A stretch of DNA of 33,441 nt from Pseudomonadota bacterium (GTDB lineage: Bacteria; Desulfobacterota; Desulfobulbia; Desulfobulbales; SURF-16), in contig JAHILF010000144.1 of the NCBI GenBank assembly GCA_018897105.1, positions 1 to 33,441 on the forward strand, in the 5' to 3' direction. The translations under genes were made by a program, and so were the position numbers. Under the pieces are notes generated by a model, which was not told the origin of the DNA, did not search any database, and saw nothing but the letters and a program-made list of their open reading frames with translations. Positions 3,358 to 30,713 of this stretch are shown here, piece after piece; positions within the stretch are counted from its first letter, which is position 1; every line of letters begins with the position of its first letter.

Positions 3358-3384
3358 CAAATCTCCTAATAGACCGTCACCTAT

Positions 3385-3426
3385 CGGCTATCAGCCATGA
3401 GCCATCAGCCATCAGCCATGAGCTGA
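3385..3426. repeat. Heptamer array A5 (CAGCCAT/GAGCCAT, 6 units)
   Basis: Six units in perfect register: CGGCTAT, CAGCCAT, GAGCCAT, CAGCCAT, CAGCCAT and GAGCTGA. The stop codon of the AMP-forming ligase (TGA, 3405-3407) is inside, and the enzyme's last five residues LMADG are array-encoded. The array is opposed to A4, so in minus-strand RNA the two can pair across the four-helix-bundle pseudogene. Confidence 0.93.
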
Positions 3427-5192: not shown

Positions 5193-5201
5193 TGGGTTGT
5201 T

Positions 5202-5283
5202 GGCTCATGGCTCATGTCATGGCTCATGGCTCATGGCTCATGGCTCATGGCTCATGGCTCATGGCTCATGGCTCATGGCTCAA
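5202..5283. repeat. Heptamer array A6 (GGCTCAT, about 11 units)
   Basis: Two GGCTCAT units, a 5-bp partial unit (GTCAT, 5216-5220), then eight identical GGCTCAT units (5221-5276) and a final GGCTCAA. With A1 it is the most homogeneous array here, which suggests recent expansion. It lies just upstream of the acyl carrier protein start and 5 bp from a four-helix-bundle gene fragment. Confidence 0.95.
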
Positions 5284-5366: not shown

Positions 5367-5375
5367 CTATCCGAT

Positions 5376-5417
5376 AGCTGATAGCTGATAGCTGATAGCT
5401 GATAGCTGATAGCTGAT
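5376..5417. repeat. Heptamer array A7 (AGCTGAT, 6 units)
   Basis: Six identical AGCTGAT units in register, preceded by a partial unit (CCGAT) and an AGCTAT stub. It ends 3 bp before the stop codon of the AsnB-like gene (5421-5423). The unit differs from GGCTCAT at two positions and occurs singly inside array A2 (1756-1762), so A7 looks like a separately amplified variant of the same family. Confidence 0.93.
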
Positions 5418-5420
5418 AAT

Positions 5421-17396: not shown

Positions 17397-17431
17397 ATTG
17401 CGGATTTGGGAATGCGGATTGCGGATTTATT
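17397..17431. repeat. Heptamer array B1 (ATTGCGG family, 5 units)
   Basis: ATTGCGG, ATTTGGG, AATGCGG, ATTGCGG and the decayed ATTTATT in strict 7-bp register. The complement (CCGCAAT and similar) equals the units of B2 and B3, so B1 is inverted relative to them. It lies upstream of the GalE-like gene. Confidence 0.85.
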
Positions 17432-17501: not shown

Positions 17502-17536
17502 AATCCGCGATCCGAAATCCGCATTCCCAAATTATC
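17502..17536. repeat. Heptamer array B2 (AATCCGC family, 5 units)
   Basis: AATCCGC, GATCCGA, AATCCGC, ATTCCCA and AATTATC in register. It ends at the base adjacent to the stop codon of the four-helix-bundle gene. B1, 70 bp away, is inverted; B3, beyond the gene, is in the same orientation. Confidence 0.88.
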
Positions 17537-17890: not shown

Positions 17891-17899
17891 AACCACATC

Positions 17900-17934
17900 A
17901 ATCCCAAATCCGCATTCCGCAATCCCAAATCACT
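17900..17934. repeat. Heptamer array B3 (AATCCCA/AATCCGC, 5 units)
   Basis: AATCCCA, AATCCGC, ATTCCGC, AATCCCA and AATCACT in perfect register. The glmS stop codon (TGA, 17930-17932) lies in the last unit, and the four-helix-bundle start is 10 bp from the first. Confidence 0.9.
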
Positions 17935-19765
17935 CCACGGTAACGCTCTTTGCCAGATTTCTCGGCTGATCCACATCGCAACCACGAAGGTTAGCAATCA
18001 GATAGGAAAGAAGTTGCAAGGGGATGACATAGAGCAAAGGCGTGAGGTCTTCATGGACATCAGGCAGGCCGATCACAAACTCACTGAGTTGGGCAAGACG
18101 CGCATCAGAGGCACTTCCCACCAGGATCATTCTGCCATGCCGGGCCTTCACCTCCTCCACATTTGAAATGAGCTTGCCATAAACACTATCCTTCGGCGCC
18201 AGGGCAAGAACCGGCATATCCCGGTCAATCAGGGCAATTGGGCCATGTTTCAGCTCTCCGGCGGCATATCCTTCTGCATGGATATATGAAATCTCTTTAA
18301 GCTTTAATGCCCCTTCCAGCGCGATGGGAAAGTTGGCGCCCCTGCCGAGATAAAGAAAATCTCGACTGCGGGAAAATTCTTCGGCAATGGTATTTAATTC
18401 TTCTTGCAGACGCGGCAGTTCATTTTCAATAATCCCTGGAAGTTCAATCAATTGTTTGCCAAGCTCTCTCGCCTTTTCCGGCAAAACGGTTCCCCGAACT
18501 TGCCCCAGGAAAAGGGTCAGTAAAAAAAGGGCGGTTAATTGACTTGTAAAGGCCTTGGTGGAGGCCACGCCAATTTCCGGACCTGCGTGGGTATAAATCG
18601 TCCCGTCAGCTTCGCGGGTGATCGTGCTGCCCACCACATTGCAGATGGCAATAACCTTAGAGCCAAGTTTCTTAGCCAGACGAAGCCCGGCCAAGGTATC
18701 GGCGGTTTCACCTGACTGGGAAATAGGGATGACGATCACATCCGGTCCCAATAATAAACGCCTGTAACGAAATTCCGAGGCAATATCCACCTCTACGGGC
18801 AGTCCAACCCACTTCTCCAGCCAATATTTCGCTACCAGGGCAGCATGCCAGGAAGTACCGCATGCCACCAGGGAGATACGGCCAATCGAACAGAGTTCTT
18901 CTTTGCTCAGGCCAATTTCCGGCAATTTTACCTCGCCTGTTTCCGGATCAAGCCTGCCCCGGAAGGTATCCAAGATGGATTGAGGCTGTTCATAGATTTC
19001 CTTGAGCATGAAATGCCGGTAACCTGATTTTTCCGCCATGCCGGCATTCCAGTCAATATGCTGCACGACCTTTTCCACCGGCTTTCCATCATCAAGGCGG
19101 GAAATTTGCACTGTATGCCCCTGCAGAACTGCCATCTCCCCGTCGTCAAGGAAGATAACATCCCGGGTGAAGGGCAGAAGTGCCGGAATGTCAGATGCCA
19201 TGAATGATCCACCTTCATGCACACCCAGCACAAGAGGACTCTGATAGCGAGCAGCCACAAGTCGATCAGGCTGTTTAAGCCACATTACTCCCAGGGCAAA
19301 TGACCCTTCCACCTCTTTTAAGGCTTCCCGTACCGCTTTGACCAAATCCTCACGGAGATGTTCTTCGATCAGATGGGCCAGCACCTCTGTGTCGGTTTGA
19401 GAGGTAAAGACATGGCCCTGGGCAATGAGCTTTTCCCGCAGCGTCTGAAAATTCTCGATGATGCCGTTATGAACCACCACCAACTCGCCACTGCAATCGC
19501 TATGGGGATGGGCATTGGCTTCAGAGGGAGGTCCATGGGTCGCCCAGCGAGTATGACCAAGTCCGACAGTGCTGTCAGTGAGCACCTTATCCATCACCTC
19601 TTCCAGATTTACCAGCTTACCTTCACTGCGATATTTATGCAGTCTGCCATCCTGCAGGTAAACAAGCCCGGCTGAATCATACCCCCGGTATTCAAGCCTT
19701 TTCAAGCCTTCGAGAAGAATAGGCACCACCCGCCGCTGCCCGATATAGCCAACTATGCCGCACAT
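17930..19765 (-). CDS. glmS: Glutamine-fructose-6-phosphate aminotransferase
   Basis: This 611-residue enzyme makes glucosamine-6-phosphate from fructose-6-phosphate and glutamine, the first step to UDP-GlcNAc. The N-terminal glutaminase domain starts MCGIVGYIG with nucleophile Cys2, followed by GHTRWATHG and HNGIIEN. Two SIS sugar-isomerase domains follow (SQSGETADT; GRGANFPIALEGALKLKE). The C-terminus is the usual AKSVTVE. Placed at the head of the sugar-nucleotide genes, it probably boosts UDP-GlcNAc for the polysaccharide; whether the genome has a second housekeeping copy cannot be seen. The stop codon overlaps array B3. Upstream (19766-20237) are nonamer arrays and a REP element, and no clear promoter. 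Confidence 0.96.
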   Translation of the reverse strand: MCGIVGYIGQRRVVPILLEGLKRLEYRGYDSAGLVYLQDGRLHKYRSEGKLVNLEEVMDKVLTDSTVGLGHTRWATHGPPSEANAHPHSDCSGELVVVHNGIIENFQTLREKLIAQGHVFTSQTDTEVLAHLIEEHLREDLVKAVREALKEVEGSFALGVMWLKQPDRLVAARYQSPLVLGVHEGGSFMASDIPALLPFTRDVIFLDDGEMAVLQGHTVQISRLDDGKPVEKVVQHIDWNAGMAEKSGYRHFMLKEIYEQPQSILDTFRGRLDPETGEVKLPEIGLSKEELCSIGRISLVACGTSWHAALVAKYWLEKWVGLPVEVDIASEFRYRRLLLGPDVIVIPISQSGETADTLAGLRLAKKLGSKVIAICNVVGSTITREADGTIYTHAGPEIGVASTKAFTSQLTALFLLTLFLGQVRGTVLPEKARELGKQLIELPGIIENELPRLQEELNTIAEEFSRSRDFLYLGRGANFPIALEGALKLKEISYIHAEGYAAGELKHGPIALIDRDMPVLALAPKDSVYGKLISNVEEVKARHGRMILVGSASDARLAQLSEFVIGLPDVHEDLTPLLYVIPLQLLSYLIANLRGCDVDQPRNLAKSVTVE

Positions 19766-19877
19766 AAAAACCTCATACTTTTGAGTTGAAATGCCTGACG
19801 TACAGAACTCATGATCTCGTAACGTAATTTCAATAAGTTATGCCACCGCCTGGGATTCTGCACTGCTACCAGTTATT

Positions 19878-19922
19878 AAGTGCCTAAAATACTTAAAGTA
19901 CTTAGAGTGCCTTAAGTTAAAG
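19878..19922. repeat. Nonamer array D1 (AAGTGCCTA family, 5 units)
   Basis: Five 9-bp units in register: AAGTGCCTA, AAATACTTA, AAGTACTTA, GAGTGCCTT and AAGTTAAAG. It lies about 110 bp upstream of glmS. A near-copy of its first 42 bp with about five differences occurs in reverse orientation at 29589-29633. Confidence 0.85.
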
Positions 19923-19943
19923 GTGTTATCTGATCAGAAAGTA

Positions 19944-19970
19944 CCGCAACTTCAAGTACTTTAGGGACTC
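19944..19970. repeat. Nonamer array D2 (3 units, inverted to D1)
   Basis: On the minus strand: GAGTCCCTA, AAGTACTTG and AAGTTGCGG. It opposes D1 across 21 bp. Confidence 0.75.
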
Positions 19971-20021
19971 TTCGCGAACTACAATTCGAGTATCACGGCA
20001 AAATATACCGAAGTCATGTTG

Positions 20022-20039
20022 TCTAAAGTTAAGGGACTT
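20022..20039. repeat. Nonamer pair D3 (2 units)
   Basis: On the minus strand: AAGTCCCTT and AACTTTAGA. A short, degenerate member of the AAGTGCCTA family in the gap between glmS and the sugar transferase. Confidence 0.5.
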
Positions 20040-20107
20040 TGTCTGATCAATAAACCTTTATCTTTATATTATGAAAGTCCTTCCCGTTGCCTTGCATGTC
20101 ATTTTGA

Positions 20108-20183
20108 GGTAGGAGCGGGCCATGCCCGCGACCTTTTAGCATTGCTAAAAACACCGCTATCGCGGGCATGGCCCGCTCCTACC
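20108..20183. repeat. REP-like palindrome, GTAGGAGCGGGC family, copy 3
   Basis: A near-perfect inverted repeat. The left arm GTAGGAGCGGGCCATGCCCG and its complement at the right enclose a smaller palindrome, TTTTAGCATTGCTAAAA. It lies between nonamer arrays D3 and D5, as copy 1 lies between C3 and C4. Confidence 0.9.
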
Positions 20184-20209
20184 CTGCTGTGGTTAGCATC
20201 TTCTCCGCA

Positions 20210-20236
20210 GTTCAACTTTAGGCATTTTAGGAACTT
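20210..20236. repeat. Nonamer array D5 (3 units)
   Basis: On the minus strand: AAGTTCCTA, AAATGCCTA and AAGTTGAAC. It ends 1 bp from the stop codon of the sugar transferase (20238-20240). Confidence 0.75.
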
Positions 20237-20237
20237 T

Positions 20238-21626
20238 TCATCTTGCACCCTTCTGAAACAAGACAATCTTGATGGTTTGAAAAATGATCCACAGATCCAT
20301 CCGCAGAGACAAATTTTTTATATAATAGAGATCATACTCAAGTTTGCGCAAGGCATCCTCTTCGGAGGCGCCATAAGGGTAACACACCTGAGCCCAGCCG
20401 GTTATGCCCGGCTTGACGATATGCCGCAGTGCGTAATAGGGTATTGTCCTGGTGAGTTGCTCGACAAATACCGGTCTCTCCGGCCGTGGCCCGACAAAAC
20501 TCATCTCACCCTTTAAAACATCCCACATCTGAGGAATTTCGTCAATTCGCGCCTTGCGCATAAAATTGCCATACCGGGTCACTCTTGTGTCATTTTCCAT
20601 GGCCCACACGGGTCCATCCTTTTCCGCATCGCTGCGCATGGAGCGAAATTTCACCACCTTAAATACCTTTCCATTCTCACCCACCCTTTCCTGTTTATAA
20701 AAAACCGTCCCAGGCGATTCCAGCTTGATAATCAAGGCGCTGAGCAAGGTAACGGGCAACGAAAGAGTCAACCCGACAAAGGAAAGCACAATATCAAGAA
20801 ATCTTTTACTAAAGATTGCCCAGCGGTTTATCTTAAATCCGGATGAATAGATAAGCCAGGAAGGATTAACATTCTCAACCAGAATTTTTCCGGTAAGTCC
20901 TTCATAAAAGGTGACGCCGTTTTCGATTGTCACGCCCTGCAACTTGCACTGCAGCAAATCCTGCACCGGCGTCTTCCCTCGAGCGTCGTCCAGAGCAACA
21001 ACAACTTTTTCCACCTTGTGCGTCCGGCACAATAAAGGAAGTTGTCCCGTTTCGGGAACCAGCGGAATATACTCGGGCACTGGGCATGCCGGATCGCGCT
21101 GCTGCCCGACAAAACTGACGATTTTATAACCTGAATCACGTTTCCCTTCAATTTCAGCGGCAATCCTTGATGCGAGCTTCCCCGCCCCCAGAATGACAAC
21201 AGGCTGAACAAACATCTTTCTGTCGAGCGCCTTATTATAAATAAAACGCCACAATAGAATACTGGTACAGATGGCTCCATAGCCCGTCCAGAAAACCCGG
21301 GACGAAATCATAATAAGCGGGAAAAAATAATAGACAAAAGCCAAGACAACGCAACCTACACCAAAGGCCTGCATCACCCGGGCAACCACTTCACCCCCAG
21401 AGACTTGTCCGCCCAAGTCATAGAGATCGAAAAAATAGAGGGAGAATTGAAAAATCAAGGTGACAATTAAAGCTCTTAACCCGTAGAGGAAGACAGCTTC
21501 ACAGTAAAGTTGGGAGCCCTTAAAAATGAAATAGACGCTATTAACCGCCAGAAATATAATCAGGCCTTCACCCAGAAAAAAAAATATATTTCTGGCCGGG
21601 TAATATTTTTTCAGGATAAACGGCAT
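20238..21626 (-). CDS. Initiating phosphoglycosyl transferase (exosortase-type EPS)
   Basis: This 462-residue polyprenyl-phosphate sugar transferase has four N-terminal membrane helices (within about 15-150) and a Rossmann-like middle domain starting VVILGAGKLASRIA. Its C-terminal catalytic domain contains RFLDIVLSFVGL, KFRSM and GEMSFVGPRPE. It starts polysaccharide repeat synthesis by moving a sugar-1-phosphate onto undecaprenyl phosphate at the inner membrane. The architecture and the adjacent kinase and chain-length genes match the exosortase-linked EpsB-type group. The ATG at 21626 is 6 bp after the tyrosine kinase stop, so the two are coupled. Array D5 abuts its stop codon. It is the only enzyme in the window that transfers sugar. 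Confidence 0.9.
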   Translation of the reverse strand: MPFILKKYYPARNIFFFLGEGLIIFLAVNSVYFIFKGSQLYCEAVFLYGLRALIVTLIFQFSLYFFDLYDLGGQVSGGEVVARVMQAFGVGCVVLAFVYYFFPLIMISSRVFWTGYGAICTSILLWRFIYNKALDRKMFVQPVVILGAGKLASRIAAEIEGKRDSGYKIVSFVGQQRDPACPVPEYIPLVPETGQLPLLCRTHKVEKVVVALDDARGKTPVQDLLQCKLQGVTIENGVTFYEGLTGKILVENVNPSWLIYSSGFKINRWAIFSKRFLDIVLSFVGLTLSLPVTLLSALIIKLESPGTVFYKQERVGENGKVFKVVKFRSMRSDAEKDGPVWAMENDTRVTRYGNFMRKARIDEIPQMWDVLKGEMSFVGPRPERPVFVEQLTRTIPYYALRHIVKPGITGWAQVCYPYGASEEDALRKLEYDLYYIKNLSLRMDLWIIFQTIKIVLFQKGAR

Positions 21627-21632
21627 GGTATA

Positions 21633-22505
21633 CTAATATTCTTCAGAATAATATTTATAATATCCTTCGTCCTGCAATCGTTTATCGAGAATATTCATTT
21701 CAAACGCATTAAAGACTATGCCAAGGACTTTCTCCCGGCCAAACTGCTCAACAAGCTTTTTCACCTGCTCCCGGCCGGCCCCGTTCCACCTGACTACCAG
21801 CACTACCTTATCAACATGCTGGGCCAGCACAGCAGTCTCGGAAGCTGCCTGAGCCGGAGGACTGTCAAGGACAATAAAGCGATCGTCATACCTATCGACA
21901 ACTTCTTTGATCAGGTTGGACATGCCTTGGGAAGCCAGAAGCTCCGAAGGATTTTCAGGGGGAGTACCTGCCGGAATAAGTGAAAGCCTGTCAAGTCCTG
22001 TCTTGACAATTAAGCTGGAGAGATCCCTTCCATCACGCAGATGGTCAACTAATCCAGCCCCGTCACTCTCGATACCGAAAAAACGCCCAAGATTCGGCCG
22101 ACGCAAATCGCAATCAACCAGCAGAGAATGCTGGTCGACCCCGTGAGCCATAATGACACCCAAATTGGCGCAGACAAAACTTTTCCCTTCGCCCGGACTG
22201 GCACTTGTCACCAATATTGACCGGGCAGGATTGCCTTCAGCCGGATGAAGAATCTTGGCCCTGAGCCGTCTGAAACTTTCAGCCACACCGGAGTAATTTT
22301 CAATTGCTGCGACAAGTCTTTCATCCCAGCCCTTGCAGACCTCAAAAGATGGAAAAGACCGCGGAGACTTAAATTTTCCCCCTGTCTTATTCTTATCTTT
22401 CCCGGGTCGAGCACTAATTTTCTGATCATTCCCAGCAAAACCGGCATCTGCACCAGGCTTTATATCGGCCCCCGCCTTTGACAGGGCCTCGGCAACCTTT
22501 CCCAC
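21633..22505 (-). CDS. BY-type tyrosine autokinase of the EPS system
   Basis: This 290-residue cytoplasmic ATPase is of the bacterial tyrosine-kinase family. It has Walker A SASPGEGKS (102-110 region), Walker A' LLVDCDLRRP (128-137) and Walker B IVLDSPPA (211-218). The C-terminus is a tyrosine cluster, GYYKYYSEEY, with five Tyr in the last nine residues as the autophosphorylation site. It acts with the chain-length protein (stop 10 bp upstream) to cycle polymer assembly, as Wzc or CapA/CapB pairs do. The N-terminal 60 residues are charged and probably flexible. Confidence 0.92.
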   Translation of the reverse strand: MGKVAEALSKAGADIKPGADAGFAGNDQKISARPGKDKNKTGGKFKSPRSFPSFEVCKGWDERLVAAIENYSGVAESFRRLRAKILHPAEGNPARSILVTSASPGEGKSFVCANLGVIMAHGVDQHSLLVDCDLRRPNLGRFFGIESDGAGLVDHLRDGRDLSSLIVKTGLDRLSLIPAGTPPENPSELLASQGMSNLIKEVVDRYDDRFIVLDSPPAQAASETAVLAQHVDKVVLVVRWNGAGREQVKKLVEQFGREKVLGIVFNAFEMNILDKRLQDEGYYKYYSEEY

Positions 22506-22515
22506 TCTTATTCTC

Positions 22516-24111
22516 CTACAGTATGATCATGCCCTGCTTCCAAAAGTAGCCTGTTGCCACGACAATGAGAATGACAAAAACAAAAAGAAGAACTCCCCAG
22601 AAAATCTGCCGAATTTTTCTTTTTTTCAGCTCAGGCTTGGTATAAATATTCGGTATGGCACAGACGATGGGGATGCCTAGATACTTTTCTACATCTGCAG
22701 GATCTTTAAAGGAAGTTCCTATCAACTCAAGCCCTAAAGTCAATGCACAGCCAATACCTAGCCCCAGCCCTACGGCGATTATCATGATCTTCTTAAAATC
22801 AGGCTTGAATGGAGTTTCCGGAAAATGGGCAGGGTCAACAATCTTGAACTGACTCCCCTTCTGATGCTTTTCCAAGCTATAGGCAGACTCAGCCTGCAGG
22901 CCCTGTCCTACCAATTCCTGATAACGTTGATGCAACTGCTCGTAATCCCTTGTCAATGCAGCCCACTCCGCTTCGCGGACAGGAGCAGCCTCGACCCAGC
23001 TCTGGTATTTTTCTATCTGGTTTTTGATCTCCGCCCGTTCCTGTTTTAATCTTTCAATATTGTACTCCAAATTACTTAACTGCTGCTTCAGTTGCTCAAT
23101 CTGCGGATCAATGTAAGGTTGATTCTGCTCATCATTGACCGCTCCATTTTCAGCAGTCGCTTCTCCTTTTTGCTGCATTGAGCTCTTCTGCTCTGCTTCA
23201 AGTTCCTGAAGTTGCTTTTGCACCCGCCTGACTTCCGGATGCTTGTCGGTATACCGGGCCTGGAGGTTCTGCAGTTCCATGCGTAACTGACTGATCTGGG
23301 CAAATATCCCGGTTGGCTGTTGCTTCCCTGACATAACTGGTGCTGCTCCGGTACCGTGCAACTGCTGGGCAAGCAATTCCCCCCGTAAAGAAATCTGCTC
23401 CTGCACCATCACTTTTGTCCGCTCAAGATCCTGGGCGCTCACCTGATTATTCTGATATTGTTCCTGCAACGCATTGAGACGGGTCATATTATTCGTAAGT
23501 TGCATGGGCATTTCATTATAATATTGCAACTTATAGTCCCGCATCACTGCCTCTTTCTTGTCCAGAGTCTCCTTAGCCATTCTCAATTCATCCTGTATAT
23601 AGACAGAAGTTTCAGAGGCCCGCTCTTCACGGTACCGGAGATTTTCTTCAATAAACTTGGCGGCAATGGCATTGGTCACCCGCAACACCTTTTTGGGGTC
23701 GTCTCCCTGATAGGAAACCCTGAAAATATCACCCTTCTCCTGGCTGAATTCAATATGTTTTTCCCGCATCATATCAACCACATCCTCCATGGGAAGACTG
23801 GCGCGCATTCCGGCATAGAGGTCAAACTCTTTGATCATTGCCTCAAGACTGCTTCGACTGGTGATCTGCTGACTTACCGTGGAAACAACCTCCTGGGTTC
23901 TGGACCTTACATCATCCGGAGACATGGCTGACGGGTTAACCTGTTGCCGCTGATACTTAATGAGCGATGTGCATTGATATACTTTAGGAGTCCTTAAATA
24001 CTGGCCAAGTCCCGCGACCACGCCGAGGAGAAAGAAAGTGATGATCATTTTCTTGCGCCGCAGAAAGATATCGAGGTATTTTTTAATAAGCTGTCGCTGT
24101 TCTTGATCCAT
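22516..24111 (-). CDS. EPS chain-length determinant (Wzz/GNVR family)
   Basis: This 531-residue polysaccharide co-polymerase is anchored by an N-terminal membrane helix (about 21-38) and a second helix at about 442-465. Between them is a long periplasmic region that is strongly coiled-coil (about 190-390), with the GNVR-type segment before the second helix. A third hydrophobic helix near the C-terminus (about 503-526) follows a cytoplasmic stretch with the usual DPADVEKYLGIP motif. It controls polymer length with the tyrosine kinase. The ATG at 24111 has no Shine-Dalgarno sequence but starts the conserved cytoplasmic lead. About 190 AT-rich bases separate it from the beta-barrel gene upstream. 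Confidence 0.9.
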   Translation of the reverse strand: MDQEQRQLIKKYLDIFLRRKKMIITFFLLGVVAGLGQYLRTPKVYQCTSLIKYQRQQVNPSAMSPDDVRSRTQEVVSTVSQQITSRSSLEAMIKEFDLYAGMRASLPMEDVVDMMREKHIEFSQEKGDIFRVSYQGDDPKKVLRVTNAIAAKFIEENLRYREERASETSVYIQDELRMAKETLDKKEAVMRDYKLQYYNEMPMQLTNNMTRLNALQEQYQNNQVSAQDLERTKVMVQEQISLRGELLAQQLHGTGAAPVMSGKQQPTGIFAQISQLRMELQNLQARYTDKHPEVRRVQKQLQELEAEQKSSMQQKGEATAENGAVNDEQNQPYIDPQIEQLKQQLSNLEYNIERLKQERAEIKNQIEKYQSWVEAAPVREAEWAALTRDYEQLHQRYQELVGQGLQAESAYSLEKHQKGSQFKIVDPAHFPETPFKPDFKKIMIIAVGLGLGIGCALTLGLELIGTSFKDPADVEKYLGIPIVCAIPNIYTKPELKKRKIRQIFWGVLLFVFVILIVVATGYFWKQGMIIL

Positions 24112-24301
24112 TTAAATATATTTTTTAATAATAACCATTATTTGATTTTAGATAAACAGAGATTTTTTGTTGAATGGTCATCTGTTTTAGGGAATTTTCA
24201 CGAAGTCAGTCGTCGCTTATTGACTAGATCTATAATAAAGTAAACGAAGGCAAAAGTAAAAGAACTTAAAAAAACCTCATCAGCCGTTTAATCCACCCCG
24301 A
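24112..24301. other. AT-rich spacer, no gene recognised
   Basis: A 190-bp gap inside the EPS export set, rich in A/T, with no clear hairpin terminator and no convincing sigma-70 or sigma-54 promoter. It also lacks the short tandem arrays that fill other gaps in this cluster. Confidence 0.4.
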
Positions 24302-25750
24302 TTACCAGCGCATGAGCTCCTTGGAGGCAGAGAGTCCCACCATTATCAAATGTTCATCATAACCTGAAACAATACTATTATTGCTCTCCAGTTTGCTATA
24401 TGTATAGCTGCAGGTCAGAGCAAACCAGCGCAAAAATGTGTAGGTTACCGAAGCCCCTGCCTCATAATCGTCAAAATCTTCCTTGCTGCCTAGTTCCGGC
24501 CACAAATATCTTTTTTCATAGGCAAGATTAAATGTCCCGGTTACATCTTGAAGCAGGGTATAACTGATACCACCATCAACTGTCCAATTTTCTCGGAGAT
24601 CTTCCCAGGAACCATCTCTTTTCTGCTGGCCAGACAAATAGCCCGCGCCCAAAGTAATTGATCCTCTTTGCAAACGCCTTGAAATTCCGAAATCAAGACC
24701 AGCCTCTGTTTCATCTCCATTATATTCCCGGGCAAGATAATTTTCGGACACTGTGGTTGTCAGTCGGGTATTTGCAGAGAGGTCATGGTTCCACCCCAAC
24801 TCCCCTGTTTGGTCAACGATATCCTCGCTGGTCCCCTGAAAATTAGTTGTATCATATCCATAAGAAGCTGAGAGTTGATCTGTTTGACTTAATGTATAAT
24901 CAACCGCAAAAAGCGTATTATGCTTATTTAAATCATTTGCCGTGTCATACTGCCCTTTGGTAAACTCATAACTGACCGAGGCAAGCCACTGAGGGTTAAA
25001 TCGGTAGGAAAGACCGACACTGGGAGAGTGCTCATAATATTCGGAGATATTGGCAGATCTGTCATCATTGGCAAAATACCTGTAGCCTAGCGTCAAAAGG
25101 CTGTCCCGGGCAAACTCATATTCTGCACCAATTGAGAATTCATTGTCCGAATACCGCCGGCGGCCTTCCGTATTGGAAAGATAACGATCCACCTCCTGCT
25201 GTGTGCTGAGACTGGCCTGGGCATAACGCCTTTCCAATTCCGTCAAGACGTAGAGATAATCGTCAGGCGTATAGCTCAATTCAGGGAACAACAGCCTTGC
25301 CACCTCAGCCTGCTCATATTGACCTGCCCGCTGAAAACGCCCGGTAACGCTGAGACCAGCATCCATATCCCGCTCAGGTGACTGATCATTGTAAGAATAG
25401 TTGTCCGATATGGTTACACGCCAATACTGAGAGATCTGCCTGCTGCCGGAAAACGCCAGATTATGCGTAAAATCTCTTTCATCAAGACGTTGGTCCCAGC
25501 CTAAATCCGAACTTGCTGTAAGGGATACCTCGTCCTTTTCCCCTATAGAAACGAGGGTCAATGTCGGCAGCAATGTCGTGGTCCAGCTATCCTCTTCATC
25601 ATTTTCCAGTTGAAAAATATTTGAGTCGTATTCCTGCTGCATACTCAAACTTCCGGAAAGGACATTCTCTCGACAGTCCGCCGAATTGCTGTTGCCCAGC
25701 AACGAAACAAGAAATAATGAGCCAATTGCAAGTATGTTTTCTTTATTCAC
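24302..25750 (-). CDS. Outer-membrane beta-barrel protein of the EPS export system
   Basis: This protein of about 482 residues has an N-terminal signal peptide (NKENILAIGSLFLVSLLG) and then many short amphipathic strands rich in aromatic residues, such as LTLGYRYFAND, VSYEFTKGQ and LTCSYTYSKLES. This suits an outer-membrane barrel of the kind found in exosortase-type EPS loci, likely the export pore or its partner. I chose the GTG at 25750 because it begins the signal peptide; an upstream TTG (25771) is possible. It follows the export gene closely and precedes the chain-length gene, whereas many such loci place the barrel after the kinase. Function is inferred from fold and position. Confidence 0.75.
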   Translation of the reverse strand: MNKENILAIGSLFLVSLLGNSNSADCRENVLSGSLSMQQEYDSNIFQLENDEEDSWTTTLLPTLTLVSIGEKDEVSLTASSDLGWDQRLDERDFTHNLAFSGSRQISQYWRVTISDNYSYNDQSPERDMDAGLSVTGRFQRAGQYEQAEVARLLFPELSYTPDDYLYVLTELERRYAQASLSTQQEVDRYLSNTEGRRRYSDNEFSIGAEYEFARDSLLTLGYRYFANDDRSANISEYYEHSPSVGLSYRFNPQWLASVSYEFTKGQYDTANDLNKHNTLFAVDYTLSQTDQLSASYGYDTTNFQGTSEDIVDQTGELGWNHDLSANTRLTTTVSENYLAREYNGDETEAGLDFGISRRLQRGSITLGAGYLSGQQKRDGSWEDLRENWTVDGGISYTLLQDVTGTFNLAYEKRYLWPELGSKEDFDDYEAGASVTYTFLRWFALTCSYTYSKLESNNSIVSGYDEHLIMVGLSASKELMRW

Positions 25751-25787
25751 GGTATTAGTCTCGCATTTCAATCAGGTTTTAATTGCC

Positions 25788-26381
25788 CTATGGCACAATT
25801 ATCGTATCTCCCGGAACAATTAAGACATTCTGTTGTAAATTCCTTCCTTTTGTGAAATCGTCATAATCAAAGCTTAAAAACTCTTCTTTACCGCCTTGCC
25901 GGCGAACAACTTTAATCTCTTCCCGCTTGGCCCATTCCTGAAAACCTCCGCTTCGGGCAATAGCCTGTAAAATAGTCAGCGGAAACTCAATGGGAAACTC
26001 GCCGGGCTGTCCGACCTGCCCAACCACATAATACCGCCGGCTGCGATTTTCAACAAGCATAACTGATACTGCAGGTTCAGTTACCAGATCAGAAATTTTT
26101 TTCTCTAGAAACTGATCAAGCTCACCTGTTGTTTTGCCTGCTGCCTGCACATCACCGGCAAGGGGCAACGAGATCTTGCCATCGAGACGGACCTTAACCG
26201 TCCTGGACAAGTCAGGCTCCTGCCAAACCTGAACTTCTAGTACGTCCCCCACACCGATTAAATAATCTTTTTCCACCTCGGTTGATTGATCAGCCCTCAC
26301 GGCCAATGGCCAAATAGTTGTAAAAAGAATCGTAAGAGAGAATAGAAAATATGACATTTTATTTTTATGTGCATTTTCCAC
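25788..26381 (-). CDS. Polysaccharide export protein (Wza-like, SLBB domain)
   Basis: This 197-residue periplasmic/outer-membrane export protein has a signal peptide (MENAHKNKMSYFLFSLTILF, ending near AVRA). Next come the Poly_export domain (YLIGVGDVLEVQVWQEPDLS at about 38-57, then VRLDGKISLPLAG) and one SLBB domain (VVGQVGQPGEFPIEFPLTIL onward). It lacks a lipobox cysteine, unlike Wza. The GTG at 26381 is chosen because AGGAGG lies seven bases upstream and gives a clean signal peptide; the frame stays open to 26477 without one. It is the first gene of the minus-strand EPS set and is divergent from the TPR lipoprotein gene. Confidence 0.88.
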   Translation of the reverse strand: MENAHKNKMSYFLFSLTILFTTIWPLAVRADQSTEVEKDYLIGVGDVLEVQVWQEPDLSRTVKVRLDGKISLPLAGDVQAAGKTTGELDQFLEKKISDLVTEPAVSVMLVENRSRRYYVVGQVGQPGEFPIEFPLTILQAIARSGGFQEWAKREEIKVVRRQGGKEEFLSFDYDDFTKGRNLQQNVLIVPGDTIIVP

Positions 26382-26480
26382 GGCAAAACCTCCTCCAAAA
26401 AACAATGCAAACCTTAAAAAACCAATAGCGAATAATAAAATCATGTTATGCGCCGTTAAATAAAAAGGCAACAACATTCT

Positions 26481-26502
26481 ATGGTTCTAACCATGTTATA
26501 AT
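26481..26502. promoter_or_regulatory. Palindrome and TATAAT box in the divergent promoter region
   Basis: The 14-bp palindrome ATGGTTCTAACCAT (26481-26494) stands 2 bp before TATAAT (26497-26502) in the 233-bp gap between the export gene and the TPR lipoprotein gene. A regulator bound to the palindrome could cover a promoter reading right. I see no good -35 box, so the promoter call is weak. Confidence 0.35.
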
Positions 26503-26614
26503 ATTTTTTATCCGAACACTTCTGCCTCTTTTTATTGCCTTTTCCCCCGCTTTCTTCTATCCTGACTTACAAAACAGTTCCTATTTTAAATTGGAAAACC
26601 GTGAGAGGAATTTT

Positions 26615-28906
26615 ATGGTCACTTCATCCCGTTCCGCGCTTTTTGTAATTTTATTATCTTTTTCCTTTCTTCTTTTTTCCGGCTGCTCCAATCCTGATGT
26701 CAAAAAGCAGGCCCATTACGATAAGGGCATGGAATATATCAAAAAGGACCAAACCAAGGCCGCGATCCTGGAATTCAAAAACGCCATCCAGATTGACCCC
26801 AAATATGCCGAAGCCCGTTACCAGCTTGGCTTGGCCTATCTCAAGACAGGCGAAGCAAAAAGCGCTTTCCCGGAACTGCAGCGAGCAGCAAGCCTTGACC
26901 CGAAAAATTATGACGCCATACTGAAGACTGCGGAATTTCTGCTTCTTGCCAAACAACCCGAGGAAAGCCGGGCGCAGATCGACAAAATCCTGGCGGCCCA
27001 GCCTGACCACGCGGAAGCCCTGGCGGTGCTGGCTAATATTGAACTTGCGAAGGGCAATATCGATAAGGCCCAGGAGGCCTTGACCAGAGCCTTGGCCAGC
27101 CAACCAAAACTCGACCGGCTTTATATCCTGCAGTCCAGAATCTATTCGGCCCAGAAAAAGTATGACCAGGCGGAACAGGCACTCCTGAAGGCTGTGGAAC
27201 TCAATCCTGAAAAAATGTCAACCCGCCAGGCACTGACCGCCTTTTACCTGAGCCGGAAAGAGGATGAAAAGGCGAAAGAAAATGTACTCAATACCGTCAT
27301 CGCCTTCCCCTCTTCTCCGGTCCCGCTTTTAGAGCTAGCATCCTTTTATATGAACAGAAAAGAATTCCCGCAGGCGGAAGAGACCATCAAAAAAGCCCTG
27401 GCTCTTGAACCGGACAATGAGCGCATTGCCCTTTCCCTGGTTGACTTTTACAAAAAAACAGTCAATTTCAGCAAAGCTGAGGAAACGCTGAAACAACTCA
27501 TCTCCACCAGCAAAAATCCCTTGGCCGTGAAGGCCATGTTGGCTGATTTTTATTTTGACCAGAGAAGATTTGCTGAGGCCCAAACCCTTGTTGCCGAAAT
27601 ACTGGGCGAAAATGAAAAACTCCCCCTGGCCCTGCTGGTCAAGGCCAAGCTTGCCATTAAAGACGGCAAAAATGATGAAGCCATTGCCAACTTAGACCAG
27701 TTGATCAAGGAAAACCCCCGCTGGGGCGAAGCATATTTTCAGCTTGCCCTTGCTCATCTGAATAAGGGCAACATGGAATCATCCCAAAAAGCAGCAGACG
27801 AGGCCGTTAAATTCATGGGCCGCAGTTCTCAGGTCCACACCCTCCTGGCCCATCTTCACCTGCGCAAACGGGAATTTGACAACGCTCAAAAGGAGGCGGC
27901 TATTTCACTAAAACTTGACCCGCGCAATATTCAGGCAGCGATTATACTCGGGCAAAGTTTACTCTATGCAGGCAAGACAGATAATGCCTTGAAGGCCTTT
28001 ACCCAGATGCATGAAATGCTGCCGGAAAGCATCGAAATCCTCCAAAATCTGGCCATGACCAGACTTGCGAGAAAAGAATATGCCGAAGCAATTCCACTAC
28101 TTGAAGAAATACTGAAGAAAAAGCCTGATTACACCCCGGCCCTGGCAACTTTGGCGGCCATTGATATGCGCAACAAACAGCCCAAGAAAGCCATTGAACG
28201 CATTCGCCGCCAGCAGGAGAAATCACCTGACAACCCCGGCAATCTTCTGCTCTTGGGCGATCTGCTGTTAAGCCAGGGCGAACTAGATGAGGCGACCACC
28301 GTTTTCCACAAGGCACAGGAACTTGCCCCTGAAAATCCCCAGCCCTATATGATGATTGCCCGCATCATGGTAAAAAGCGGCAAAAGCAATGAGGCGATTG
28401 CTCAATACCAGTCATTGCTGAAGAATCAGCCGAACTCTTTACAGGCCCTGATGGCATTAGGACCACTTTATGAACAGGTCGGCAAGCCTGAAGAAGCGAA
28501 AAAAACCTACCGCCATGTACTTGAGCGTGACCCAAAGTTTGCCCCGGCGGCTAACAATCTGGCCTGGCTCGTTACCCAGGAAGAAAATCCCGATCTTGGT
28601 GAGGCCATGCGGCTTGCCTTGGTTGCCAAAGAGCGCCTGCCGAACGACCCGAATATCAGCGACACCCTGGGATTCATCCATTACAAACGAGGCGCCTATG
28701 ACCTGGCAACCACCCAGTTCAGAGATGCCATTGCTGCTATGCCCAATGTCCCCACCATCCGCTATCATCTAGCCCTTTCCCTCAAAGGCCAGGGTGCTGA
28801 CGCCGAGGCGCTTCAGGAATTAAAAGAATGCTTAGGGGAAAATATTGAATTTCCTGAACGTAAGGAGGCAGAGGAACTTCTTCGCTCCTGGCAGGCCAGC
28901 CAATAA
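26615..28906 (+). CDS. TPR-repeat lipoprotein (PEP-CTERM/EPS-associated type)
   Basis: This 763-residue protein has a lipoprotein signal ending in the lipobox LFSGC (Cys24) and then about twenty tandem tetratricopeptide repeats to the end. Typical TPR spacing shows in AILEFKNAIQIDPKYAEARY and YDQAEQALLKAVELNPEK. It should be a membrane-anchored periplasmic scaffold. Large TPR lipoproteins of this kind (about 900 residues) are regular members of exosortase/EPS loci, and alginate and Pel systems also use TPR proteins between the membranes. The ATG at 26615 with AGAGG just upstream is preferred to the TTG at 26591. It is transcribed divergently from the export gene, and the phosphatase gene follows 7 bp after its stop. 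Confidence 0.85.
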   Translation: MVTSSRSALFVILLSFSFLLFSGCSNPDVKKQAHYDKGMEYIKKDQTKAAILEFKNAIQIDPKYAEARYQLGLAYLKTGEAKSAFPELQRAASLDPKNYDAILKTAEFLLLAKQPEESRAQIDKILAAQPDHAEALAVLANIELAKGNIDKAQEALTRALASQPKLDRLYILQSRIYSAQKKYDQAEQALLKAVELNPEKMSTRQALTAFYLSRKEDEKAKENVLNTVIAFPSSPVPLLELASFYMNRKEFPQAEETIKKALALEPDNERIALSLVDFYKKTVNFSKAEETLKQLISTSKNPLAVKAMLADFYFDQRRFAEAQTLVAEILGENEKLPLALLVKAKLAIKDGKNDEAIANLDQLIKENPRWGEAYFQLALAHLNKGNMESSQKAADEAVKFMGRSSQVHTLLAHLHLRKREFDNAQKEAAISLKLDPRNIQAAIILGQSLLYAGKTDNALKAFTQMHEMLPESIEILQNLAMTRLARKEYAEAIPLLEEILKKKPDYTPALATLAAIDMRNKQPKKAIERIRRQQEKSPDNPGNLLLLGDLLLSQGELDEATTVFHKAQELAPENPQPYMMIARIMVKSGKSNEAIAQYQSLLKNQPNSLQALMALGPLYEQVGKPEEAKKTYRHVLERDPKFAPAANNLAWLVTQEENPDLGEAMRLALVAKERLPNDPNISDTLGFIHYKRGAYDLATTQFRDAIAAMPNVPTIRYHLALSLKGQGADAEALQELKECLGENIEFPERKEAEELLRSWQASQ

Positions 28907-28913
28907 GCAGATC

Positions 28914-29591
28914 ATGCCAAGAACGTATGTGATCGGTGATATCCACGGTTGCCATGCATCTCTGCTGGAACTGCTCCATAAGACCCAGCCGGATCTCAAC
29001 CGTGACACGATTATTTTTCTTGGCGATTATATTGACAGAGGGCCGGATTCAAAAAAGGTGGTCTCAGAGGTGATCCGGTTGATGGAGGAGGCTCCGGGCC
29101 GGGTGATTCCCCTGATGGGCAATCACGAACAGATATTTCTCGCCTCGCTGGCTGGCGAGGAACGGGACTTCTACCTGCGGATGGGCGGCGACAAAACCCT
29201 GGAAAGCTACGGCATCATGCCCCCATTTACCGGGCGGATCGCCGCCAGAATTCCTGTAAGTCATCTTCATTTTTTTAATGAACTGCTGCTTTACTGGGAA
29301 GACAAAGAGTACATTTATGTCCATGCCGGCCTGCAACCCCATGTCCATTTAAGCCAACAGTCACCCCGCTGGTGCTGCTGGGCCAGGGACCAGTTCCTGG
29401 ATTCCCGCTATGACTTCGGCAAGCAAGTCATCTTCGGCCACACCCCCTTTGACACACCACTCATTGACAAAAACAAAATTGGCATTGATACCGGAGCGGT
29501 TTATGGCGGCCGCCTGACCTGCCTGGTGCTGCCGGACTTTGAGTTTATCAGCGTTAACGGATTGCGGATTGGGGATTTCTTGGTGCCGTAA
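28914..29591 (+). CDS. PPP-family serine/threonine-type metallophosphatase
   Basis: The 225-residue protein has the full PPP metal-site set: GDIHGC (Asp9, His11), GDYIDRG (37-43), GNHE (69-72), YVHAG and FGHTPF. It should be a two-metal phosphoprotein or dinucleotide phosphatase of the lambda-phosphatase/PrpE/ApaH group. Its place directly behind the TPR lipoprotein gene (7 bp gap) suggests cotranscription. A role opposing EPS kinases is only a guess. The ATG at 28914 starts the first beta-strand; earlier codons in the same frame overlap the TPR gene. The stop codon lies inside the first unit of nonamer array D4. Confidence 0.85.
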   Translation: MPRTYVIGDIHGCHASLLELLHKTQPDLNRDTIIFLGDYIDRGPDSKKVVSEVIRLMEEAPGRVIPLMGNHEQIFLASLAGEERDFYLRMGGDKTLESYGIMPPFTGRIAARIPVSHLHFFNELLLYWEDKEYIYVHAGLQPHVHLSQQSPRWCCWARDQFLDSRYDFGKQVIFGHTPFDTPLIDKNKIGIDTGAVYGGRLTCLVLPDFEFISVNGLRIGDFLVP

Positions 29592-29633
29592 TAACTTTAG
29601 GCACTCCAACTACTTCAAATATTTTAGGCACTT
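29589..29633. repeat. Nonamer array D4 (5 units)
   Basis: On the minus strand the units are AAGTGCCTA, AAATATTTG, AAGTAGTTG, GAGTGCCTA and AAGTTATTA. It exactly fills the gap between two convergent genes: the phosphatase stop (29589-29591) is in one end unit and the nadA stop (29635-29637) is one base beyond the other. It is a near-copy of D1, 9.7 kb away. Confidence 0.88.
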
Positions 29634-29634
29634 T

Positions 29635-30690
29635 TTATATCTCCAGCATGCGGTCCAGGGCCAGTTTAGCCCCGACAGCGGTTTGCCTATCAACCGTGAT
29701 CTGATTGACCACCTTGCCCTGCGCCAGATTATCAAGCACCCACAGCAGATTGGCGGGGGTTATGCAACTCATGGTGGCACAGGTGCATGGAGTTGGGGCC
29801 AGCAGATGAATGGTCTTGTCCGGATGCTGTTTTTTCAGCCGGTTGACCAGGTTGACCTCAGTGCCGATGGCCCAGACAGCCCCTGCCTCGGATTCCCGGA
29901 CGGCCTCGATAATCCTTTCGGTGGATCCATAGTAATCCGACCGCCGTACTACCTCACAGGGGCTTTCAGGATGCACGATGATGCGGATGGCAGGGATCTT
30001 TTCCCGCCATTTATCAATCTGTTCCACCAGAAACTCCTGATGAACATGGCAGTAACCGTTCCACAGGATGGTCTTGGCCTTCACCAGCTGCTCCACACTG
30101 TTGCCGCCAAGCTTCTTTCCCCGCTGCCAGACAACAATCTCATCATCCCCAATTCCCAATGCCTTGCTGGAATTTCTGCCCAAATGCTCATCCGGGAAAA
30201 AGAAAACCTTCTCTCCCCTTGTCCAGGCCCAAGTCAAAACCCGCTCCGCATTGGACGAGGTGCAGACCGAACCTCCCCGATTGCCGACAAAGGCCTTGAT
30301 GCTTGCTGAAGAGTTCACATATGTAATCGGGATTACCGTCTGTCCCCCGCAAACCCCTGCCAACTCATTCCAGGCGGCGGCAACCTGCTCAACAGTGGCC
30401 ATGTCCGCCATGGGACAGCCTGCATTGAGATCCGGCAGAATAACCGACTGATCATCATCCGTCAGAATATCGGCGGATTCCGCCATGAAATGCACACCGC
30501 AAAAAATGATATAGGGGTATTTCCCCGATTCAGCGGCTTCGCGGGCAAGCTTAAGAGAATCCCCGGCCAGATCGGCAAATTGAAAGACATCTTCCTGCTG
30601 ATAATGATGGCAGAGAATCAACACCTTGCCGGCAAGTTCCTTTTTCCTGGCAGCTATTTTTTCAAATATAATTTCCTGCTGTTGAGTCAT
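29635..30690 (-). CDS. nadA: Quinolinate synthase A
   Basis: This 351-residue [4Fe-4S] enzyme condenses iminoaspartate with dihydroxyacetone phosphate to quinolinate in NAD synthesis. The expected cluster cysteines are seen in LNAGCPMADM (Cys92), NGYCHVH (Cys213) and the C-terminal PCTCATMSC (Cys302/304). ILCHHYQ, YVNSSA and PDEHLGRN are also typical. The ATG at 30690 is used because GGAAG lies eight bases upstream; a TTG at 30708 is less likely. No other NAD gene is adjacent. It is convergent with the phosphatase gene across array D4. Confidence 0.95.
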   Translation of the reverse strand: MTQQQEIIFEKIAARKKELAGKVLILCHHYQQEDVFQFADLAGDSLKLAREAAESGKYPYIIFCGVHFMAESADILTDDDQSVILPDLNAGCPMADMATVEQVAAAWNELAGVCGGQTVIPITYVNSSASIKAFVGNRGGSVCTSSNAERVLTWAWTRGEKVFFFPDEHLGRNSSKALGIGDDEIVVWQRGKKLGGNSVEQLVKAKTILWNGYCHVHQEFLVEQIDKWREKIPAIRIIVHPESPCEVVRRSDYYGSTERIIEAVRESEAGAVWAIGTEVNLVNRLKKQHPDKTIHLLAPTPCTCATMSCITPANLLWVLDNLAQGKVVNQITVDRQTAVGAKLALDRMLEI

Positions 30691-30713
30691 GTGCAATGCT
30701 TCCTTCAATGAAA

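Follow-up and report, generated by a model that had tools for sequence, protein, structure and literature searches.

How do two gene junctions lying far apart in one genome come to carry nearly the same short tandem array? The question arises in a window of 33,441 nucleotides, the whole stretch of DNA analysed here, from a relative of Desulfurivibrio, in which the array D1 (positions 19878-19918, + strand) finds its counterpart in D4 (29593-29633, - strand).

Two distant arrays share one unit order

Each array consists of four 9-mers followed by AAGTT, with a repeat period of 9, and the middle letters of the units read, in order, GCC, ACT-like, ACT-like and GCC in both. The preliminary description, which was silent on the opposite strands of the two arrays, had reported near-identity and a common unit order, and our analysis bears out both points. 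Aligned to D1, the reverse complement of D4 shows 5 differences in 41 positions, and the pair was recovered by whole-genome BLAST with an E value of 2.0e-8. When the units of D4 were permuted in all 24 orders, the real order was the closest to D1 (5 differences over 36 bases), against 7 differences for the next best order and a mean of 11.5. Pairwise differences between units amount to 1-5 of 9 bases within D1 (mean 2.8) and to 1-6 of 9 within D4.

A degenerate 41-bp pattern, searched with at most 3 mismatches, matched 36 places in 5 of the 6 genomes of the genus, the source genome (G000) included; in the latter, D1 and D4 were the only matches. The same pattern read backward as a control gave no match at this threshold. 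The 41-bp arrays, too short for a tree, were compared by Hamming distance: among the 14 sequences compared, the nearest to D4 was an element arm of genome G005 with 4 differences, followed by D1 and three others at 5. These results support a common ancestry of the 41-bp module in D1 and D4, with copying possible in either direction.

D1 lies within a MITE-like element

Analysis of the D1 surroundings revealed a MITE-like element of about 223 bp (19803-20025, + strand; 225 bp, 19802-20026, if the outermost T and A are included), located just upstream of the start codon of a glmS-like gene (17930-19765, - strand; PF01380 and PF13522). D1 forms its left arm, between a left terminal inverted repeat, acagaactcatgatctcg (19802-19819, + strand), which resembles the TCAGANNNNCTGATNTCG ends of the family with some letters changed, and a central palindrome, TCTGATCAGA (19929-19938). 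The right arm harbors an inverted nonamer array (19948-19970, - strand), about 18 bp, or two units, shorter than in most of 14 aligned copies, and is closed by a right terminal inverted repeat (20009-20026, - strand) that is imperfect relative to the left end in this copy.

Multi-copy homologues with both ends were aligned, and in the 14-copy alignment the element ends align and pair in the consensus structure. Many conserved columns are found in the ends and around the central palindrome, which appears to read like both terminal tips placed back to back; the nonamer arms vary in unit number, several copies having gained or lost units. Both sides have changed in 5 of the 31 predicted pairs, with a covariation term of only -0.27. 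A long hairpin whose main stem is made of the two arrays is the fold of one well-preserved copy (RNA z -4.3; DNA z -3.4), and the RNA fold of D1's own element is no better than that of shuffled sequences (z -0.63). No Rfam family matched the window at gathering scores, and no terminator-like site was detected in 19600-20300.

The D1 element region has 20 matches in the source genome, and as a query it matched 11 of 38 genomes at E<=1e-3, the source included; left and right ends, searched separately, were each present in 6 of 6 chosen genomes. From the fetched loci we collected 20 distinct elements with both ends and flanks, ranging from 164 to 501 bp. D1's copy is too short to encode a transposase. 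The element combines several features of a MITE: it is short and multi-copy, with terminal inverted repeats and a target duplication of fixed length.

The length of this duplication depends on where the border is placed. With TCAGA/TCTGA as borders, an identical 3-bp flank repeat was found in 13 of the 20 elements (about 0.3 by chance), 11 of these 13 being of the ANT form, and an identical repeat of 4 to 10 bp in none of the 20. With CAGA/TCTG as borders, one base further in, 11 of the 20 showed an identical 5-bp repeat (about 0.02 by chance). Seven elements, including D1's, lack the identical 3-bp repeat and nine the identical 5-bp repeat; in D1's copy the duplication has decayed, the left remnant acgta (19798-19802) and the right copy aagtt (20026-20030) being alike at 3 of 5 positions. 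Four copies have an outermost left base other than T; in three of them this base is identical to base five of the right flank repeat and so follows the flank, for which reason we prefer the 5-bp reading. The sites are the same under both readings, with 5 bp the better fit. The flank letters point to an AANTT-like target, with A at -4 in 30 of 31 rows and T at +4 in 25 of 31; these rows include some elements twice, in both orientations, as well as other families with like tips, and the 20-element counts are cleaner.

Visual inspection of the gap between the glmS and sugar-transferase genes showed no element in any of the five readable relatives (G002, G004, G005, G011 and G018), a count that leaves out G003, where nadA adjoins glmS, and G001, where the glmS match begins at a contig end. 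D1's element therefore looks like a lineage-specific insertion.

Other repeats were observed in the same surroundings and loci. About 80 bp from D1's element lies a perfect, REP-like 24-nt inverted repeat, ggtaggagcgggccatgcccgcga (20108-20183), and the 3' end of the sugar transferase gene contains a short degenerate nonamer array, tcaactttaggcattttaggaactt (20205-20240). Repeats of ~19 bp, tacccacaaggggcacaag, occur in varying number in the element's right arm at four G004 loci (L063, L064, L065 and L066). A second family of short elements in the source genome, 273-380 bp long (L153:99-478, L157:547-821 and L159:385-657), has like tips, TCAGA...CCTGATGTCG, and no nonamer arrays by eye. A third short element of 257 bp, in G005 (L165:1104-1360), with tips TCAGACATCCTGACCTCG, is located within the right array of a nonamer element and is flanked by the 5-bp repeat ACTTT.

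Search for a mobilising transposase

No autonomous element sharing these ends was found in the draft genomes with the two transposase families searched. PF01609 gave 50 matches in 7 genomes; among the 30 of these loci examined for element-like ends, only at L173 and L197 was the transposase enclosed by weak pairs of end-like sequences, which agreed at 10-11 of 13 positions and had no flank repeat. PF13359 had no match in the same number of genomes, and scanning every fetched locus for paired ends returned weak pairs only. PF01609 was without a match in G004 and in G005, even though the latter contains near-identical element copies. At G005 locus L142, which carries a further tip variant, no frame was recognisable by eye as a transposase, and plasmid and phage records gave no match to one well-preserved element copy. 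Duplications of 3 bp with the ANT form are typical of the ISL2 group of the IS5 family; a link to this group, which had rested on such duplications, is not claimed, as the 5-bp reading speaks against it and no transposase was linked.

D4 fills a convergent gene junction

D4 occupies 41 of the 43 bp between the stop codons of a calcineurin-like phosphoesterase gene (28845-29591, + strand; PF00149, E 9.1e-20; stop 29589-29591) and of nadA, encoding quinolinate synthase (29635-30708, - strand; PF02445, E 2.7e-98; stop 29635-29637), both of which abut it. The array had been said to fit exactly between two convergent stop codons, and it does fit there. The start given for it, 29589, took in the phosphoesterase stop codon; the array begins at 29593. 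A further tandem array (29558-29577) lies beside D4, inside the final phosphoesterase codons.

No terminal or central element sequence was found around D4 or around its counterpart in the close relative G002. REP palindromes have a palindromic unit of 20-40 nt, which D4 does not show: no inverted repeat of at least 12 was found in 29300-29900, around D4. The fold of D4 is no better than that of shuffles (z -1.1).

The nadA junction was read in seven genomes, G003 being left out for its different neighbour. G002 carries an array of the same order (C151:43476-43516) with 6 differences from D4, G004 an array of alternating 9- and 10-mers, and G018, from another genus, GTGAC nonamers followed further on by a heptamer-like array; with the source genome, nonamer arrays are thus present in four of the seven. 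G001 has heptamer arrays at this place, and no array was found in G005 and G011. The presence of a D4-type solo array at the orthologous G002 junction makes it unlikely that D4 is a recent copy of D1. On the 3' side of nadA (L105, L109), different relatives show different kinds of tandem repeats, as if the junction tolerated or attracted them.

Arrays are copied as blocks and also change locally

Between element copies, units at the same position differ at ~1.0 of 9 bases, whereas those of a single copy differ from one another at 2.9 of 9, in a comparison of six chosen left-arm sequences, one from the window and five from other copies. Unit orders were also surveyed in 65 distinct arrays of at least three units, a biased sample drawn from loci fetched for holding such arrays or elements. 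We relied only on the unit orders from this survey, some right arms having been labelled left arms owing to the palindromic centre. The D1/D4-type order, counting GAaG and GagG as variants of GAAG, was found in 17 of the 65; the others read GAGA, GAGG or GGAG or are long single-unit runs, and a few hold the D1/D4-type order within longer arrays. Such runs comprise 8 identical units in G027, 11 in G005 and 13 nearly identical units in G243. Conservation of unit order across copies, by which the preliminary description would have its copying claim judged, is not universal. Since orders differ among loci and single-unit runs exist, local growth of arrays takes place alongside their copying as blocks, and our data support the operation of both processes, block copying by transposition and local gain or loss of units.

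Analysis of the wider distribution revealed four contiguous nonamers of a general pattern in 7 of 257 genomes of the class, the source genome not among them, with 0 matches for the backward control. An exact pattern scan of named genomes returned 11 stretches: three in Desulfurivibrio sp. SURF_16, a member of Desulfobulbales, six in Deltaproteobacteria bacterium NC_groundwater_1637, and one each in two other MAGs, of which one bears the label Bacteroidales. Viral contigs contained 19 stretches matching a nonamer pattern; all lie inside open frames with no element parts near, presumably resemble collagen-type repeats, and were taken as unrelated coding repeats.

Simple motif scans of 23 distinct array contexts found no element part near 8 of them; one of these 8, in G001, in fact abuts an element end. 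The frame calls around arrays are too ambiguous for us to propose that solo arrays favour convergent junctions. The window itself contains further short tandem arrays, mostly heptamers (280-366, 5201-5282, 5373-5418, 1907-1950, 3383-3423, 17397-17427, 17502-17532 and 17899-17925, besides the one next to D4), including TGGCTCA repeated about 12 times in two places, GATAGCT repeated 6.6 times, and AGCCATC and CAATCCG types.

Origin of the two arrays

We consider it probable that D1 is the left array of a transposed MITE and D4 an older solo copy of the same module. D1 would be the left subterminal array of a non-autonomous DNA transposon, which a putative transposase acting in trans would move to AANTT-like targets; transposition in trans is what the duplications and the copy pattern suggest. 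The whole nonamer block would travel as cargo, which would preserve the unit order, and after transposition units could be gained, lost or mutated in place. At the nadA/phosphoesterase junction, the 41-bp module would be present in D4 as an older copy standing on its own, and common descent would be the simplest reason for its occurrence in G002 as well. The earlier view that the array had been copied as a whole can thus be kept for D1, as the cargo of a transposable element; for the D1-D4 pair, only a common ancestry of the module is supported. We infer that the element arm and the solo module share this ancestry, and an element eroded to its array, an array captured by an element, or elements inserted into arrays are possible routes.

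The first of these routes, applied to D4, would make it the remnant of an old MITE insertion at the nadA junction of which only the left array escaped deletion. Internal deletions at the arrays do occur in elements, as seen in a 174-bp copy of the source genome (C146) in which both arrays are fused, and unit 2 of D4 carries AAAT, as do most listed element left arms. Yet the G002 counterpart and three solo or nearly solo G004 arrays carry AAGT in unit 2, and the lack of terminal and central element sequence around D4 and its G002 counterpart also speaks against a remnant, an origin that we regard as doubtful but worth keeping in view.

Another reading, which we find improbable, takes solo nonamer arrays as a dispersing repeat system of their own, captured by the MITE and also serving as landing pads for elements with these tips. 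The AAGTT at the end of the arrays agrees with the AANTT target, and the left flank of the element that holds D1 resembles an array unit, gaaatgcctgacgt. In G005, the short L165 element, with related tips and no nonamers of its own, sits in a nonamer array with an exact 5-bp repeat, and in G001 (L052) the element end directly abuts the solo array. The unit sequence is lineage-specific even at one gene junction, with GTGCC in the source genome and GTGAC in G018, as if the arrays of each lineage were kept alike by homogenisation across the genome or by a protein that reads nonamers.

Selection might instead keep the solo array for a job at gene ends, for example as a bidirectional terminator or a binding site. 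The recurrence of nonamer arrays at four of seven nadA junctions would agree with such a role, but their absence from G005 and G011, the heptamers of G001 and the unremarkable fold of D4 argue against it; moreover, an open frame starting MVKLA follows closely downstream of the solo array G004:C40, so that not all sites are gene ends. We rate this role as slightly more improbable still. Finally, minisatellites each grown by slippage from a common nonamer, with a merely coincidental common order, would account for the long single-unit runs and the differing orders between loci, but are very improbable given the permutation result, the better agreement of same-position units across copies than of units within one, and the position of D1 inside an element with defined ends.

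Relation to known repeats and significance

The STRR heptanucleotide repeats of cyanobacteria are short tandem repeats dispersed genome-wide in non-coding DNA; their unit is 7 bp, whereas the period here is 9, and we know of no link between STRR repeats and a MITE. In Beggiatoaceae, most direct repeats of the heptamer TAACTGA lie just upstream of putative start codons in the genome studied (PMC4679880). As outlined in the passages devoted to them, they resemble the present arrays in being short intergenic tandem repeats, dispersed genome-wide with a patchy distribution and with no known mover, and differ in the unit, 7 there and 9 here, and in that these passages describe no transposable carrier (PMC4679880). 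A closer analogy for the element is the Chunjie MITE of Geobacter uraniireducens, 235 bp at full length, with further intergenic copies of 178-235 bp and many partial copies; in the account given of it, Chunjie also has conserved terminal inverted repeats and direct repeats (PMC10969869). This likeness is one of description, not of sequence, and the present element differs from Chunjie, as there portrayed, in that both arms are nonamer arrays also found solo. Our searches of open-access papers returned no description of this element family.

The match between D1 and D4 is real but mostly ordinary mobile-DNA biology. It indicates that a tandem array can spread whole as transposon cargo yet still turn over unit by unit, and it provides orthologous junctions on which transfer from solo array to element, or from element to solo array, is testable.
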